Assembly: GCF_003046625.1 (NCBI RefSeq)
Contig: NZ_QAAD01000026.1
Span: 1-47,848, forward strand
Reading direction: 5' to 3'
Source: Mangrovibacterium marinum
Lineage (GTDB): Bacteria > Bacteroidota > Bacteroidia > Bacteroidales > Prolixibacteraceae
Length of the DNA stretch: 47,848 nucleotides
Position numbers and translations under genes: made by a program
The notes under the pieces: model-generated
Databases searched by the model: none
Told to the model about the DNA's origin: nothing
What the model saw: only the letters and a program-made list of their open reading frames with translations
Part shown: piece after piece, positions 14,526 through 21,452 of the stretch
Layout: the number at the start of each line of letters is the position of its first letter
Position numbering within the stretch: position 1 is the stretch's first letter

Positions 14526-14838
14526 GTTCGCGATCAAAAATTTTCCTAAAAATAGACTTTTCTGAAAACCACGCACGCAAAAAACGTTAAAATTCCTAAA
14601 TGCGTAGGTGAAAGTCCGTATTCGGTCTGCGAAACATGACAAATGACAGGGAAGTGAGTGTTTGTCGAAATATTTGTCTTTGTTCGGGCTGTCCGGTCCG
14701 CAAGGGCTTAACGGCAGCATCGCAGCTTTGGTTTTGTTTCACCAAAAAAAAAAACTGGCGCCCCGAAATTCCCCGATCTGTTTAACGGCCAATCCAAACT
14801 TCTGTGGAAGATATTATTCGTCAATATTCGGGCAAACA
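14526..14838. other. Intergenic region upstream of the ECF locus
   Basis: About 310 bases with no supported gene. It includes an 11-base A run (about 14742-14752) and the string AGGTGAAAGTCCGTATTCGG near 14607-14626. The last bases lead into the first ECF-type promoter at 14839. Confidence 0.5.
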
Positions 14839-14868
14839 GCGCAAGTTTTTATTTAAATTCGTGTCAAA
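14839..14868 (+). promoter_or_regulatory. ECF-type promoter P1, upstream of the ECF sigma gene
   Basis: GCAAGTTTTT (14841-14850), ten bases, GTGTCAAA (14861-14868). The same two boxes with the same spacing recur at 15472 and 16497. The -10-like box ends 23 bases before the sigma start codon. This fits autoregulation by the encoded sigma factor. Confidence 0.75.
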
Positions 14869-14891
14869 CCCCAAATACTCAGCAAAACACG

Positions 14892-15467
14892 ATGACTGAT
14901 CCCGAGCTGGTGGCGCAAATAAAAGTGGGCAACGAAAAGGCCTTTCGGCTTTTGGTTGAGCAATATCAACGGATGGTGTTGCATACCTGTTTGGGGTTTG
15001 TGCAGGACCGGAATGATGCCGAAGATCTGGCGCAGGAGGTTTTTATTGAGCTTTTCCGTGCCATGGATAAGTTCCGGGGCGAATCCGGTTTGTCCACCTG
15101 GATATATCGTATCGCCGTGAATCGATCCCTGAATTTCATTCGTGATCAGAAACGACGTTGTTTCTTTCAGTCAATAAGTACCCGCCTGACTGGTGGAACG
15201 ACTGTGGATGTTGCCGACCAAAGCTGGCGCTCTCGCCCGGATCATGAAGTTGAAAATAACCAGCGCCGGGCAAACCTGTACCAAGCAATCAATCGTTTGC
15301 CGGAACGGCAACGCGTGGCGTTCACCCTAAGCAAGCTGGAGGGTTTGTCCTATCAGGATATTGCCGGAATTATGGGGCTTTCGTTGTCTTCGGTAGAATC
15401 GTTGATTCACCGGGCAAAGCTTGGTTTGCAGAAACAGTTGTATCAGTGTTACAAAAAGGGCCTGTGA
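14892..15467 (+). CDS. RNA polymerase ECF sigma factor
   Basis: A 191-residue group IV sigma factor. Region 2 (FRLLVEQYQRMVLHTCLGF; DAEDLAQEVFIELFRAMDKF) binds core polymerase and the -10 element. Region 4 (LPERQRVAFTLSKLEGLSYQ; DIAGIMGLSLSSVESLIHRA) is a helix-turn-helix for the -35 element. An extended, basic and polar linker (about 95-125, RDQKRRCFFQSISTRLTGG) separates them. It is followed 37 bases later by a zinc-finger anti-sigma gene and then a periplasmic sensor-like gene, an arrangement analogous to the CnrH/CnrY/CnrX metal-response system. Identical promoter motifs before it and its neighbours suggest it drives its own locus. Confidence 0.93.
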   Translation: MTDPELVAQIKVGNEKAFRLLVEQYQRMVLHTCLGFVQDRNDAEDLAQEVFIELFRAMDKFRGESGLSTWIYRIAVNRSLNFIRDQKRRCFFQSISTRLTGGTTVDVADQSWRSRPDHEVENNQRRANLYQAINRLPERQRVAFTLSKLEGLSYQDIAGIMGLSLSSVESLIHRAKLGLQKQLYQCYKKGL

Positions 15468-15471
15468 GTAT

Positions 15472-15499
15472 GCAAGTTTTTAATCAATAAGGTGTCAAA
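15472..15499 (+). promoter_or_regulatory. ECF-type promoter P2, directly upstream of the anti-sigma gene
   Basis: GCAAGTTTTT (15472-15481), ten bases, GTGTCAAA (15492-15499). The box pair lies within the 37-base gap between sigma and anti-sigma. The anti-sigma ATG at 15505 is only 5 bases past the -10-like box, where transcription itself would start, so the transcript from P2 is predicted to be leaderless. Confidence 0.7.
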
Positions 15500-15504
15500 A
15501 GAAT

Positions 15505-15930
15505 ATGGAAACAAGAAGTCACGCTCAGATTCAGAAAAAGCTGATATTCTACCTGGATAATCAGTTAGGGGCGAAGGAACATCAACAGGTTGTACAGCAC
15601 CTGTCTGGTTGCGATGAATGTGCTGCTTTTCTGCGGGAATTGCAGAGCACTCTTTGTTTGTTGGAGGAGAATAAGCAGCACGAGCCAGGCGCTTACTTTT
15701 ATGCAAGCATCCAAAACCGGCTGCAGGCAGGGCATAGGCAGCCCTTGCTTGGAATCCGATTGTTGCAGCCGGCAATACTTGTGTTGCTTTTGGCCTTAGG
15801 AATCCGTTTGGGAATCTGGATAGGTACCCAAAGCTACGCCGAGAGCGTTTTATCAGAACAGGCAGTCCTTGTTCCCTTTAATGATTTAGCAGAAGAACCG
15901 ATTGAAGAATTCCTTTTAAATCTGAAATGA
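15505..15930 (+). CDS. Zinc-finger (zf-HC2-like) anti-sigma factor, single-pass membrane protein
   Basis: A 141-residue anti-sigma factor. The N-terminal ZAS-type domain contains H32-x3-C36-x2-C39 (HLSGCDEC), a zinc-binding signature of anti-ECF factors, after the helix KKLIFYLDNQLGAKEHQQ. A single transmembrane helix lies at about 85-107 (LLQPAILVLLLALGIRLG), leaving a short periplasmic tail (SEQAVLVPFNDLAEEPIEEF). It should hold the upstream sigma factor at the membrane until a periplasmic signal arrives. Its stop overlaps the next gene as ATGA, so it is translationally coupled to the sensor-like protein. Confidence 0.9.
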   Translation: METRSHAQIQKKLIFYLDNQLGAKEHQQVVQHLSGCDECAAFLRELQSTLCLLEENKQHEPGAYFYASIQNRLQAGHRQPLLGIRLLQPAILVLLLALGIRLGIWIGTQSYAESVLSEQAVLVPFNDLAEEPIEEFLLNLK

Positions 15931-16454
15931 TGTTTCGAAATGTAAAACTTTTAAGTTGGTTGGTTGCAATATTGTTGGTTACCAACCTGGCGACTATTAT
16001 CACTGTTATTTATCATACACGCACGGAGTCAAAAGTCATAACAAACAAGGGGGATGAGCACGTTCCCGGTGATCGGCGAACGCGCTATTTTAAGGAGCAG
16101 TTGCACTTGACCGACGAGCAGCTTGTTCCTTTTCGCGAAGCCAACCGTCGGTTTAACCGCCGGACCCGGGCATTAACCGATCATTTGAGTGACCAGCGGT
16201 CGGCAATGCTGCGTGAGCTGTTCTCCGATGCTGCGGACCAGAAGGTGCTGGCCGCTATCGCTGCCGGGGTCGGAGCAGATCACGAACAGCTGAAACTGGC
16301 AACCTGTGAGTTCTATCTCGAGCTTAAGTCGCTTTGTACCGAAGAGCAGAAGGAACAGCTAGCGGCAATTTTTCAGTCGCTGCTGGATGCCGAAGAAAAG
16401 GTTCAGTTGCCAGGCAAGAAGCATCGTAACGGAAAAGGCAGATTAGCGGAATGA
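15927..16454 (+). CDS. Spy/CnrX-like periplasmic metal-sensor-type protein
   Basis: A 175-residue protein with one N-terminal membrane anchor (LLSWLVAILLVTNLATIITV, about 8-28) and an all-helical periplasmic domain. The pattern FKEQLHLTDEQLVPFREANR (residues about 55-74), then paired long helices, then SLCTEEQKEQLAAIF, is that of the Spy/CpxP/CnrX 'heavy-metal resistance' superfamily. Two Cys (in LATCEFYLELKSLC) lie on one predicted helix and could bind metal or respond to thiol stress. The C-terminus is basic (GKKHRNGKGR). The coupled position after sigma and anti-sigma suggests it modulates the anti-sigma factor in the periplasm. The specific metal or stress is not known. Confidence 0.75.
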   Translation: MMFRNVKLLSWLVAILLVTNLATIITVIYHTRTESKVITNKGDEHVPGDRRTRYFKEQLHLTDEQLVPFREANRRFNRRTRALTDHLSDQRSAMLRELFSDAADQKVLAAIAAGVGADHEQLKLATCEFYLELKSLCTEEQKEQLAAIFQSLLDAEEKVQLPGKKHRNGKGRLAE

Positions 16455-16494
16455 TAATAGTTCCCTTTGAATGATGAATAAAAAGAAACATATA

Positions 16495-16524
16495 GCGCAA
16501 GTTTTTTAGTTGTTACGTGTCAAA
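16495..16524 (+). promoter_or_regulatory. ECF-type promoter P3, upstream of the LTxxQ/DUF2202 pair
   Basis: GCAAGTTTTT (16497-16506), ten bases, GTGTCAAA (16517-16524). It extends the match to P1 by a shared GC 5' of the -35-like box and a shared C before GTGTCAAA. It would give a 5' leader of about 65 bases before the ATG at 16597. Confidence 0.72.
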
Positions 16525-16596: not shown

Positions 16597-17064
16597 ATGA
16601 AGACAAGTATTGGGATTTTAGCAATGACATTTTTATTGACATGGGGACTTCAGCTAAACGCGCAACAAACCAGGAGAGGTTCGTGTGTTAACGGAATTTC
16701 AAATCTCACCGAAGAACAAAAAACAGCAATTTCAGCTTTGGAAACGAGCTATCAGAGTCAAATGGCCGATTATCGCACAGACCGGCAGGGAACAATGGAT
16801 CTGGAGCAGAAAAAGGAGATTCGTGAAAAAATGATAACGGCTCGCGATCAACATCGAAAACAGGTAAATGAACTATTAAATTCCGATCAGCAAAAAGAAT
16901 ATGCCGGTTGGATTGATGCTCGCAAGGAGCGTTGGGATAATAGCTCTGCAAATGTCGGGCATCGTGGCCAAAAAGCAAAGAAGGGAAAAGCTGCCAAACG
17001 TGGAAAGGGACAGGGTAAAAACCGATCGGGGGCAGGTAAAGGTGCCTGTTTGAATAATAATTAA
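16597..17064 (+). CDS. Secreted LTxxQ-like (Spy-related) protein with a Lys/Gly-rich tail
   Basis: A 155-residue exported protein with signal peptide MKTSIGILAMTFLLTWGLQ...NAQ. The mature domain is helical and shows two LTxxQ-like units (NLTEEQKTAISALE near 37 and LLNSDQQKEYAGWI near 92) separated by a charged coiled-coil stretch (QKKEIREKMITARDQHRKQ). This is the spacing seen in Spy-like periplasmic chaperones. The C-terminal 35 residues are strongly basic and Gly-rich (KAKKGKAAKRGKGQGKNR), with a Cys on either side of the mature protein (GSCVNG and GKGACL). It has its own ECF-type promoter and is followed by the DUF2202 gene 11 bases later. A periplasmic stress chaperone or metal-buffering role is inference. 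Confidence 0.7.
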   Translation: MKTSIGILAMTFLLTWGLQLNAQQTRRGSCVNGISNLTEEQKTAISALETSYQSQMADYRTDRQGTMDLEQKKEIREKMITARDQHRKQVNELLNSDQQKEYAGWIDARKERWDNSSANVGHRGQKAKKGKAAKRGKGQGKNRSGAGKGACLNNN

Positions 17065-17075
17065 TAGAACGAAGG

Positions 17076-17762
17076 ATGAAAACGTTAATTGGAATTATTG
17101 GAATAAGCGCCTTGCTTTGTTGTACCGGATTCAGCTATGGAGAGGAAGCGGCAAAACAAATCTTTTCAGGACAAATGACGGAACCCGCAACGAACTTGAC
17201 GGTTGCTGACTTACCGGACAATATAAAGGCCGGCCTGTTACTGATGCGCGAAGAAGAAAAACTGGCTCACGACTTATATGCGGCTTTTGCCGAAATGTAC
17301 GAACTCCCTATTTTCGGCAACATTGCAGCTAGTGAGGCGAACCATACGGCTGCCGTGCTGCGCCTGTTGCAGCAATATGGCTTGGAGGATCCGGCATTGA
17401 CTGGCAAGGGAGAATTTCGCAATAAGAAATTGCAGCAAGCCTATAATCAGTTGCTGGATTCTGGAAGTGAATCGTTAGTTGCAGCACTCAAAAACGGCGC
17501 CTATGTCGAAGAACTGGACATACTGGATCTTGAAGAGCAGCTAAAACAAGTCGAAGATGATTCAATTCGGCGGGTGTATTCAAATTTGCTGAGGGCGAGC
17601 TACAATCACCTTCGTGCTTTTAACCGGGTTTTGGACCGAAATGGGGTTGACTATAATCCGCAGCTGTTGTCGGTGAAATCCTTTGATGAAATTGTCAGTG
17701 CCGACAACGAGTGCGGTCATCACGGGCGCAAGGGACGGCATGGTAAGTCCTGTAAAAAATAA
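17076..17762 (+). CDS. DUF2202 ferritin-like protein, exported
   Basis: A 228-residue protein with an N-terminal signal sequence (MKTLIGIIGISALLCCTGFSYG). It may be a lipoprotein, since LLCC resembles a lipobox. The DUF2202 domain has the carboxylate and His-rich helices of the ferritin-like fold: LLMREEEKLAHDLYAAFAE (about 53-71), SEANHTAAVLRLLQQYG (about 88-104), LEEQLKQVEDDSIRRVYSN and ASYNHLRAFNRVLDRNG. The Glu and His positions would form a di-metal site. The C-terminus is His/Cys/Lys-rich (ECGHHGRKGRHGKSCKK), suggesting metal contact. It is probably co-transcribed with the preceding LTxxQ gene from P3. Confidence 0.83.
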   Translation: MKTLIGIIGISALLCCTGFSYGEEAAKQIFSGQMTEPATNLTVADLPDNIKAGLLLMREEEKLAHDLYAAFAEMYELPIFGNIAASEANHTAAVLRLLQQYGLEDPALTGKGEFRNKKLQQAYNQLLDSGSESLVAALKNGAYVEELDILDLEEQLKQVEDDSIRRVYSNLLRASYNHLRAFNRVLDRNGVDYNPQLLSVKSFDEIVSADNECGHHGRKGRHGKSCKK

Positions 17763-20891: not shown

Positions 20892-21398
20892 CTAATTTGC
20901 GTAGTCTTTCAGTGCTTTCTCCAGCTTTTTGCGTGTAAAGAAGATTCGGCTTTTCACAGTTCCCAGCGGCAGGTTCAGATACTCGGCGATTTCCTTGTAC
21001 TTATATCCGTCCAAAAACATTTTGAAGGGCACCTTATACTCATTTTCCAGCGCGTTAATGTTTTTCAGAATTTCTTTTGAACTGAAAAACGAATCGGGCG
21101 ACGGGTAAATCCGGTCTTTCGAAAATTTCAGGTGGAAATCGTTGTTCGATCCGTCAAAGGTATTTTTGGCCTTCACGTTACGGCGGTAATTATTAATGAA
21201 GGTGTTCTTCATAATAGTATAAATCCAAGCCTTAAAATTGGTGTTCTGTGTAAATTTGTCACGGTAAGTCAATGCTTTCAGGAAAGTTTCCTGCAACAGA
21301 TCCTGTGCTTTTTCCTGATCAGCAGTCAAACTGAGGGCGTAATACAAAAGTTTATCTTGCAGTCCCAGCAATGCGTTGTTAAATTGAACTTGTGTCAT
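20892..21398 (-). CDS. RNA polymerase ECF sigma factor
   Basis: A 168-residue ECF sigma factor from ATG 21398 (MTQVQFNNALLGLQDKLLYY). The frame extends 15 codons further, but this start matches the usual family beginning. Region 2 is LTADQEKAQDLLQETFLKAL and region 4 is LDGYKYKEIAEYLNLPLGTV followed by KSRIFFTRKKLEKAL. No anti-sigma gene is adjacent, which is normal for the stand-alone ECF factors widespread in Bacteroidota. Divergent from the TonB-dependent receptor across a 319-base structured intergenic region; a functional link to it is possible but unproven. Confidence 0.93.
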   Translation of the reverse strand: MTQVQFNNALLGLQDKLLYYALSLTADQEKAQDLLQETFLKALTYRDKFTQNTNFKAWIYTIMKNTFINNYRRNVKAKNTFDGSNNDFHLKFSKDRIYPSPDSFFSSKEILKNINALENEYKVPFKMFLDGYKYKEIAEYLNLPLGTVKSRIFFTRKKLEKALKDYAN

Positions 21399-21427
21399 GG
21401 CGTGTGATTTAACGTTATTGTTTAGAA

Positions 21428-21435
21428 CAAATATA
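21428..21435 (-). promoter_or_regulatory. Bacteroidota -7 element (TATATTTG) of the ECF sigma gene
   Basis: The minus-strand octamer TATATTTG matches TAnnTTTG exactly, 30 bases before the chosen ATG. A TTG upstream is about 16 bases away, shorter than the usual spacing. Confidence 0.5.
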
Positions 21436-21452
21436 AATAACAAGTTTGGTCC

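Follow-up and report, generated by a model that had tools for sequence, protein, structure and literature searches.

What reads the three identical copies of a two-block pattern that stand between the genes of a small regulatory locus in Mangrovibacterium marinum? The pattern, GCAAGTTTTT-N10-GTGTCAAA, is found by a search of the window (the whole stretch of DNA analysed, 47,848 nucleotides of contig NZ_QAAD01000026.1) at positions 14841-14868, 15472-15499 and 16497-16524, each time exact and on the + strand. A sequence-only reading of this DNA had reported the three equally spaced sites. It had placed them before the gene of an extracytoplasmic function (ECF) sigma factor, before an anti-sigma gene and before an LTXXQ-like/DUF2202 gene pair, and had taken them to be the recognition sites of the sigma factor encoded at 14892. 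The coordinates and strand were confirmed, open reading frames and Pfam matches bear out the placement, and comparison with relatives supports the last step. The three repeats are thus predicted to be promoters of this sigma factor, with a probability of about 0.93. The sites and genes are as follows.

14841..14868, + strand: promoter P1 (predicted), -35 GCAAGTTTTT, N10, -10 GTGTCAAA; exact match, and the operon-leading site in relatives.
14892..15467, + strand: ECF sigma factor, 191 amino acids (aa); Pfam Sigma70_r2 7.7e-21 (21-89) and Sigma70_r4_2 4.8e-20 (127-176).
15472..15499, + strand: promoter P2 (predicted), in the 37-base gap from the sigma stop to the anti-sigma start; exact match.
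15505..15930, + strand: anti-sigma factor, zf-HC2 (Pfam zf-HC2 5.2e-07).
15927..16454, + strand: probable membrane-anchored periplasmic sensor with a Metal_resist/Spy/CnrX-like helical fold (Pfam, AlphaFold, Foldseek).
16497..16524, + strand: promoter P3 (predicted); exact match, with 11 downstream sites in the named loci of relatives.
16597..17064, + strand: small LTXXQ-like protein, probably exported, 155 aa (Pfam LTXXQ 2.7e-04).
17076..17762, + strand: DUF2202 protein, ferritin/rubrerythrin-like, probably exported, 228 aa (Pfam DUF2202 2.8e-51).

At up to three mismatches the window holds these three sites and no other match. One hundred dinucleotide shuffles of it gave a mean of 0.12 matches, a maximum of two and never three, in line with the earlier view that such a repeat is improbable by chance. 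Within the draft genome to which the window belongs (G000; 4,598,241 bases in 61 contigs), the only matches at up to two mismatches are the same three sites, against one for the backward control. Chance repetition was rejected on the shuffles, on this genome-wide uniqueness and on the zero backward control in the loci of relatives described below. A looser core pattern run over the genome yielded one extra weak site on another contig, with two control matches. A large regulon in G000 was also rejected, as there is only this weak extra site, a genome search for DUF4405 gave no match, and 17076..17762 is the sole DUF2202 match of the genome. As predicted from its sites, the regulon in this genome is one locus.

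None of the sites lies inside a long gene, as had been noted. Among frames of at least 60 aa, site 1 overlaps a 64-aa frame (14662-14856, +) and site 2 falls within a 108-aa frame (15449-15775, -) antisense to the anti-sigma gene, both of them otherwise unsupported. The description of the locus as a sigma/anti-sigma/sensor regulon held for the first two members, each of which has a site before it; the sensor gene has no site of its own and follows site 2.

A scan of this and related genomes, as the sequence-only reading had proposed, found one three-site cluster here and a recurring arrangement elsewhere. Forty-seven named loci were found via the sensor protein, two of which share one assembly. 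Of these, 38 are titled Prolixibacteraceae or carry the genus names Mangrovibacterium, Sunxiuqinia, Draconibacterium, Mariniphaga, Maribellus, Gaoshiqia or Tangfeifania. At up to four mismatches, a matching site stands at the operon head in 46 of the 47, and before the anti-sigma gene also in 46 (45 plus a fused frame, L126), usually two bases past the sigma stop. The backward pattern never came below five mismatches at either place. The site is directly before the sigma gene in 30 loci. A DUF4405-type gene lies ahead of the sigma gene in 16, and there the site precedes that gene with at most three mismatches; Pfam confirms the family in L072, L087 and L102, the other such genes being named by resemblance.

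Counted at up to two mismatches, the 373,120 bases of these loci contain 89 sites, with zero for the backward control. They are distributed over the anti-sigma place (40), the sigma place (24), the DUF4405 place (14) and the + strand past the sensor (11), with none elsewhere. For nine of the 11 past-sensor sites an LTXXQ- or DUF2202-like gene lies no more than about 210 bases away; for the other two this is not clear. The spacing is fixed: when spacers of N6 to N15 were tried, 89 of 90 sites had N10 and one had N12, with none at N6-N9, N11 or N13-N15. At L137 the variant GCAGGA-N-GTGTC occurs at both the operon head and the anti-sigma place. A compensatory change was considered for this locus and rejected, because the recognition helix of its sigma factor is ordinary; L137 therefore shows the core (GCARG, GTGTC) and no specificity switch.

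P2 lies only a few bases from the end of the sigma gene, and part of the DNA that flanks it upstream is coding. On this account it could be a by-product, such as an RNA element conserved at the junction of the two genes, and no real promoter. Of the alternatives considered this one survives best, and it is still very improbable. P2 equals P1 at 18 of 18 fixed bases in the window, and the anti-sigma place is the most constant single place of all (46 of 47). At L051, where sigma and anti-sigma genes are divergent, each has its own site, so that the anti-sigma gene still has one before it.

The promoter reading also predicts where transcripts begin. The consensus of 106 sites from the 47 loci is (C/T)GCAAGTTTT(T)-N10-GTGTC(A/T)(A/T)A. 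Beyond it, A occurs in 79% of the sites at position 34, 93% at position 35 and 69% at position 36; elsewhere between positions 29 and 42 its share is 10-55%. The corresponding values in 76 same-class sites of other families are 84%, 82% and 71%, and in 17 GTAGGAAA-class sites A is present at position 35 in 94%. This conserved A, 6-7 bases past the motif, is at the position expected for an ECF start and, as far as sequence can show, agrees with the 6-9 bases after GTGTCAAA that the sequence-only reading had set for mapped starts. All three sites of the window have A as base 34 (14874, 15505 and 16530). P1 has A at both 34 and 35, with a predicted start at about 14874-14875, and P3 would start at about 16530 with a leader of about 67 bases.

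At P2 the predicted start, 15505, is also the first base of the anti-sigma ATG, and that frame has no earlier start codon, so the P2 message should be leaderless. The same motif-to-ATG distance of 5 bases is seen in three other members of the genus that were found, at sites with 2, 2 and 4 mismatches. Among 46 named loci (without L126), the ATG lies 16-24 bases past the site in 41, 5 bases in two (both of this genus), 7-8 bases in two (with a later in-frame ATG present) and 107 bases in one. A leaderless P2 transcript is accordingly predicted for the genus of the window. In Flavobacterium psychrophilum, passages of PMC9723704 put leaderless messages at 5.5% and the median leader at 24 bases.

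A search starting from the motif led back to the same genes. A site with at most one mismatch is present in 34 of 295 same-order genomes, giving 42 sites (three of them the window's) against six for the backward control. One locus each was then taken from 29 of the 33 other genomes, with four further sites of these 29 covered only where they fell inside the stretches taken; in 21 of the 29 loci the gene immediately behind the site is a homologue of the sigma, anti-sigma, LTXXQ-like or DUF2202 gene. A loose sensor profile matches 162 of the 295 genomes. By this profile a sensor homologue is found in 32 of the 34 motif genomes (the exceptions are G076 and G049) versus 130 of the 261 others (Fisher 1.5e-7, uncorrected for relatedness). 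In 33 chosen genomes, sites with at most one mismatch occur in 19 of the 22 with a sensor homologue and in none of the 11 without. Of the 30 such sites in these genomes, 27 are at the sigma locus; the remaining three lie before an orphan LTXXQ gene, before the gene of a small glycine-rich protein and across the start of an open frame. A scan of 345 genomes of the phylum found sites at this threshold in only four genomes besides that of the window, against six in the backward control. The motif is therefore at background outside the order, and a phylum-wide signal was rejected.

Further evidence linking the site with this particular sigma factor comes from deeper relatives. Loci with a sigma gene beside the sensor numbered 105, of which five had been fetched twice, leaving 100; a clear promoter class was assigned in 77. 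Where the -35 differs, being GTAGGAAA or GTAATAAA, the sigma recognition helix differs as well. Two helix positions are E and G in 11 of 11 GTAGGAAA-type rows and in 0 of 61 GCAAG-type rows with letters, which have L/V/I and S/P/A/T there. Another position is G in 3 of 3 GTAATAAA-type rows and E in all others with letters. The loci with the EG helix, whose promoters are mostly GTAGGAAA, are listed here.

L053 (= L154 place), L157, L158, L162, L164, L166: EG helix, mostly GTAGGAAA promoters.
L179, L181, L182, L185, L189: the same, continued.

At L164 the EG helix is accompanied by GAAGGAAA. Three changes, the minimum, are enough to explain the distribution of the four classes (62, 11, 3 and 1 rows) over a maximum-likelihood tree, compared with a mean of 14.4 after shuffling. 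The GTAGGAAA and GTAATAAA types each form one supported clade, although the bootstrap is not fully settled. A de novo test for a shared dyad, applied within each of the 105 deeper loci, found 28 loci with 15 or 16 matches out of 16, against zero in the backward null. At 11-13 matches the counts did not clearly exceed the null, and several of the top pairs are A-rich flanks and not promoters. The joint difference of promoter and helix would tie the site to this sigma factor and not to another. If the helix sets specificity, a sigma factor with SSVES would use GCAAGTTT, the EGAVE type GTAGGAAA and the TEVGV type GTAATAAA.

Two further explanations can be weighed at this point. A dimeric regulator might also suit two conserved blocks with constant spacing; the repeats would then be operators for a repressor or activator distinct from the sigma factor, and not sigma promoters. 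The two blocks are, however, not repeats of one another. In ECF promoters two blocks are followed by an A 6-7 bases on, and the layout here matches this. The A is kept across different -35 classes, and the promoter class follows the recognition helix of the sigma factor. Beyond the genes of the system, moreover, the highest recurrence of any gene cluster over the stretch listed is 6 of 21 neighbourhoods, for a small frame (c5), followed by a TPR-kinase type (c6, 5 of 21). Separate operators are thus even harder to credit than a by-product at P2. The weakest explanation, that the sites are read by a different ECF sigma factor encoded in the genome and the present one is just a target, can draw on a second ECF gene in the window (20892-21443, - strand) and on the overlapping ECF regulons discussed in parts of PMC9723704, but is scarcely credible when sites with at most one mismatch are found in 0 of 11 genomes without the sensor system against 19 of 22 with it, and when helix and promoter differ together at this very locus.

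Several observations weigh against the assignment of the sites to this sigma factor. In the window, P2 has T and P3 has C at position 35. In the motif-first search, 8 of the 29 loci are away from the system: the site precedes genes of the TonB/outer-membrane-barrel type at L006, L007, L011, L012 and L032 (by Pfam at L012 and L032, by resemblance at the rest), stands 259 and 120 bases before other genes at L013 and L016, and is inside an open frame at L008. Three genomes (G072, G023 and G024) have a more distant sensor homologue and no site at up to one mismatch. At up to two mismatches the 33 whole genomes give 75 sites against 25 in the backward control, so two-mismatch sites off the locus are near background. 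No clear promoter was found in 23 of the 100 deeper loci. Finally, the two larger alternative classes are one clade each, and the joint difference of promoter and helix therefore rests on few evolutionary events.

The proteins of the locus would fit a variant of a known regulatory plan. The sigma factor consists of regions 2 and 4 only, and the ECF superfamily is the sole model over its cut-off among the best 25 of 129 NCBIfam rows. The anti-sigma factor has Hx3Cx2C at residue 32 (HLSGCDEC) and, from residue 90, a hydrophobic stretch that is probably a membrane helix. An anti-sigma match lies beside the sigma gene in 46 of the 47 named loci, all 46 having Hx3Cx2C; the exception is the fused frame. 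In this Prolixibacteraceae assembly (L126:2898-3950) sigma and anti-sigma share one 350-aa frame with the P2 site inside, which is either a fusion or a sequence error. The LTXXQ-like protein scores under the PF07813 cut-off (22.0 versus 24.3 bits), while its orphan homologue at L080 passes with 26.7. The DUF2202 protein matches PF09968 with 174 bits against a cut-off of 22 and is related to the solved structure MJ0754 (3.8e-40, PDB).

The start of the sensor gene overlaps the end of the anti-sigma gene. Its product matches Pfam Metal_resist at 1.4e-05, with 25.6 bits and under the cut-off of 29.2. The AlphaFold model (pLDDT 82) has an N-terminal helix and a helical hairpin, and in Foldseek it resembles CnrX, CpxP, Spy, ZraP and 5io8, the top TM-scores being those of CnrX (TMt 0.69-0.79). 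The best CnrX E-value is 0.025 and that of the top row, 5io8 of the same fold, is 0.012; as none is below 0.001, the model suggests a resemblance of fold and does not prove a family. With the sequence profile of the sensor, the only matches of this fold are 5ihf (E 0.15) and ZraP (0.86). Among the soft residues, H119 is invariant, and H30 beside the membrane helix and C137 are both conserved at 90% or more.

Comparison with characterised systems places the locus more closely. The E. coli sigma-E promoter has a -35 of GGAACTT and a -10 of TCAAA with about 16 bases between them. The sites here read GCAAGTT and TCAAA with 16 between, but the -35 core is AAG where AAC is usual. CnrYXH of Cupriavidus metallidurans is a nickel/cobalt ECF system in which, as predicted here, an ECF sigma factor, a membrane anti-sigma factor and a membrane-anchored periplasmic sensor occur together. 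It differs in that no frame of RND size is present here on the + strand between the sensor and 20109, and the metal ligands of CnrX are not evident in this sensor. The anti-sigma factor here is of the zf-HC2 class I type, as opposed to the class II CnrY (the classes as given in parts of PMC8103513 and PMC7406223). The system is a variant of the ECF/anti-sigma/CnrX-like plan in which a class I zinc anti-sigma factor replaces CnrY.

Pairs of an ECF and a class I zinc anti-sigma factor, of the RsiW or ChrR type, share Hx3Cx2C and one hydrophobic stretch with this locus. Here a gene for a probable sensor of Spy/CnrX-like fold is present in addition, and the anti-sigma gene would have a sigma-type promoter to itself. 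According to a portion of PMC7406223, zinc anti-sigma factors of this class stand beside only 6% of Bacteroidetes ECFs. The SM6 promoters of F. psychrophilum are likewise of a Bacteroidota ECF type with an ECF/anti-sigma pair among the targets, as described in sections of PMC9723704. They differ in the -10 box, CGT, and in targets that include several type IX secretion genes, and those sections on SM6 contain no GCAAGTTTT -35.

A working scheme can be proposed from these comparisons. Without a signal, the membrane zf-HC2 anti-sigma factor would hold the sigma factor. A change in the periplasm would be sensed by the CnrX/Spy-like membrane protein and lead to release of the sigma factor. Once free, the sigma factor would use region 4 to read GCAAGTTTT and region 2 to read GTGTC. 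Transcription from P1 would cover the sigma factor's own gene and operon and amplify it, whereas P2 would supply anti-sigma factor and sensor and so restore the brake. P3 would yield the exported LTXXQ-like and DUF2202 ferritin-like proteins, which would act outside the cytoplasm. The signal is most likely metal or redox stress outside the cytoplasm, because the outputs look exported and because of the kinds of genes found behind the sites in relatives.

Some of these genes may be further targets. The DUF4405 family includes one purified member with b-type heme, as stated in part of PMC11334425. Two-mismatch sites, which in single genomes are near background, also stand ahead of genes for a multiheme cytochrome and a putative lipoprotein (two relatives each), and ahead of an RND efflux operon and an outer-membrane efflux gene (a different single relative for each). 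Another possible target, found behind the site in two groups of relatives (L006, L007, L011 and L012, by Pfam in L012 only), is a protein that combines an outer-membrane barrel with a TonB plug. A TonB-dependent receptor at L032:1577-3028, in a genome without a sensor homologue, has a one-mismatch site and a CPNRM stretch reminiscent of copper receptors. Small glycine-rich proteins with a DTNKDGICD-type stretch are encoded near the system at L066:10765-11064 and L079:10130-10420, and another, at L081:345-665, lies under a one-mismatch site.

Beyond the sequence-only reading, the analysis adds the conservation of the sites, the one-locus regulon, the predicted start base, the predicted leaderless anti-sigma message in the genus, the alternative promoter classes with matching helices and a likely family of outputs. 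Among the papers listed, none contains the string GCAAGTTTT or LTXXQ, and DUF2202 gave no match; the system may nonetheless have been published. In F. psychrophilum, a passage of PMC9723704 describes the assignment of promoters to the seven ECF factors as still to be worked out. In the present case, a precise promoter, a predicted start base, a candidate sigma factor and relatives with an altered -35 and helix make specificity testable by reporter swaps. Three poorly known families (DUF2202, LTXXQ-like and DUF4405) would also be tied to one stress circuit.

A wider proposal is offered tentatively, at somewhat less than even odds. These loci would represent a Bacteroidota ECF family defined by a third component of CnrX fold, in which specificity has changed at least twice (GCAAGTTTT, GTAGGAAA and GTAATAAA) through a few helix residues while the spacer and start base stayed fixed. 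The family would drive a periplasmic redox/metal defence set of DUF2202 ferritin-like, DUF4405 heme cytochrome and LTXXQ-like proteins, with a leaderless anti-sigma message in the genus of the window. If true, the loci would form a novel envelope stress response that already comes with a specificity code.

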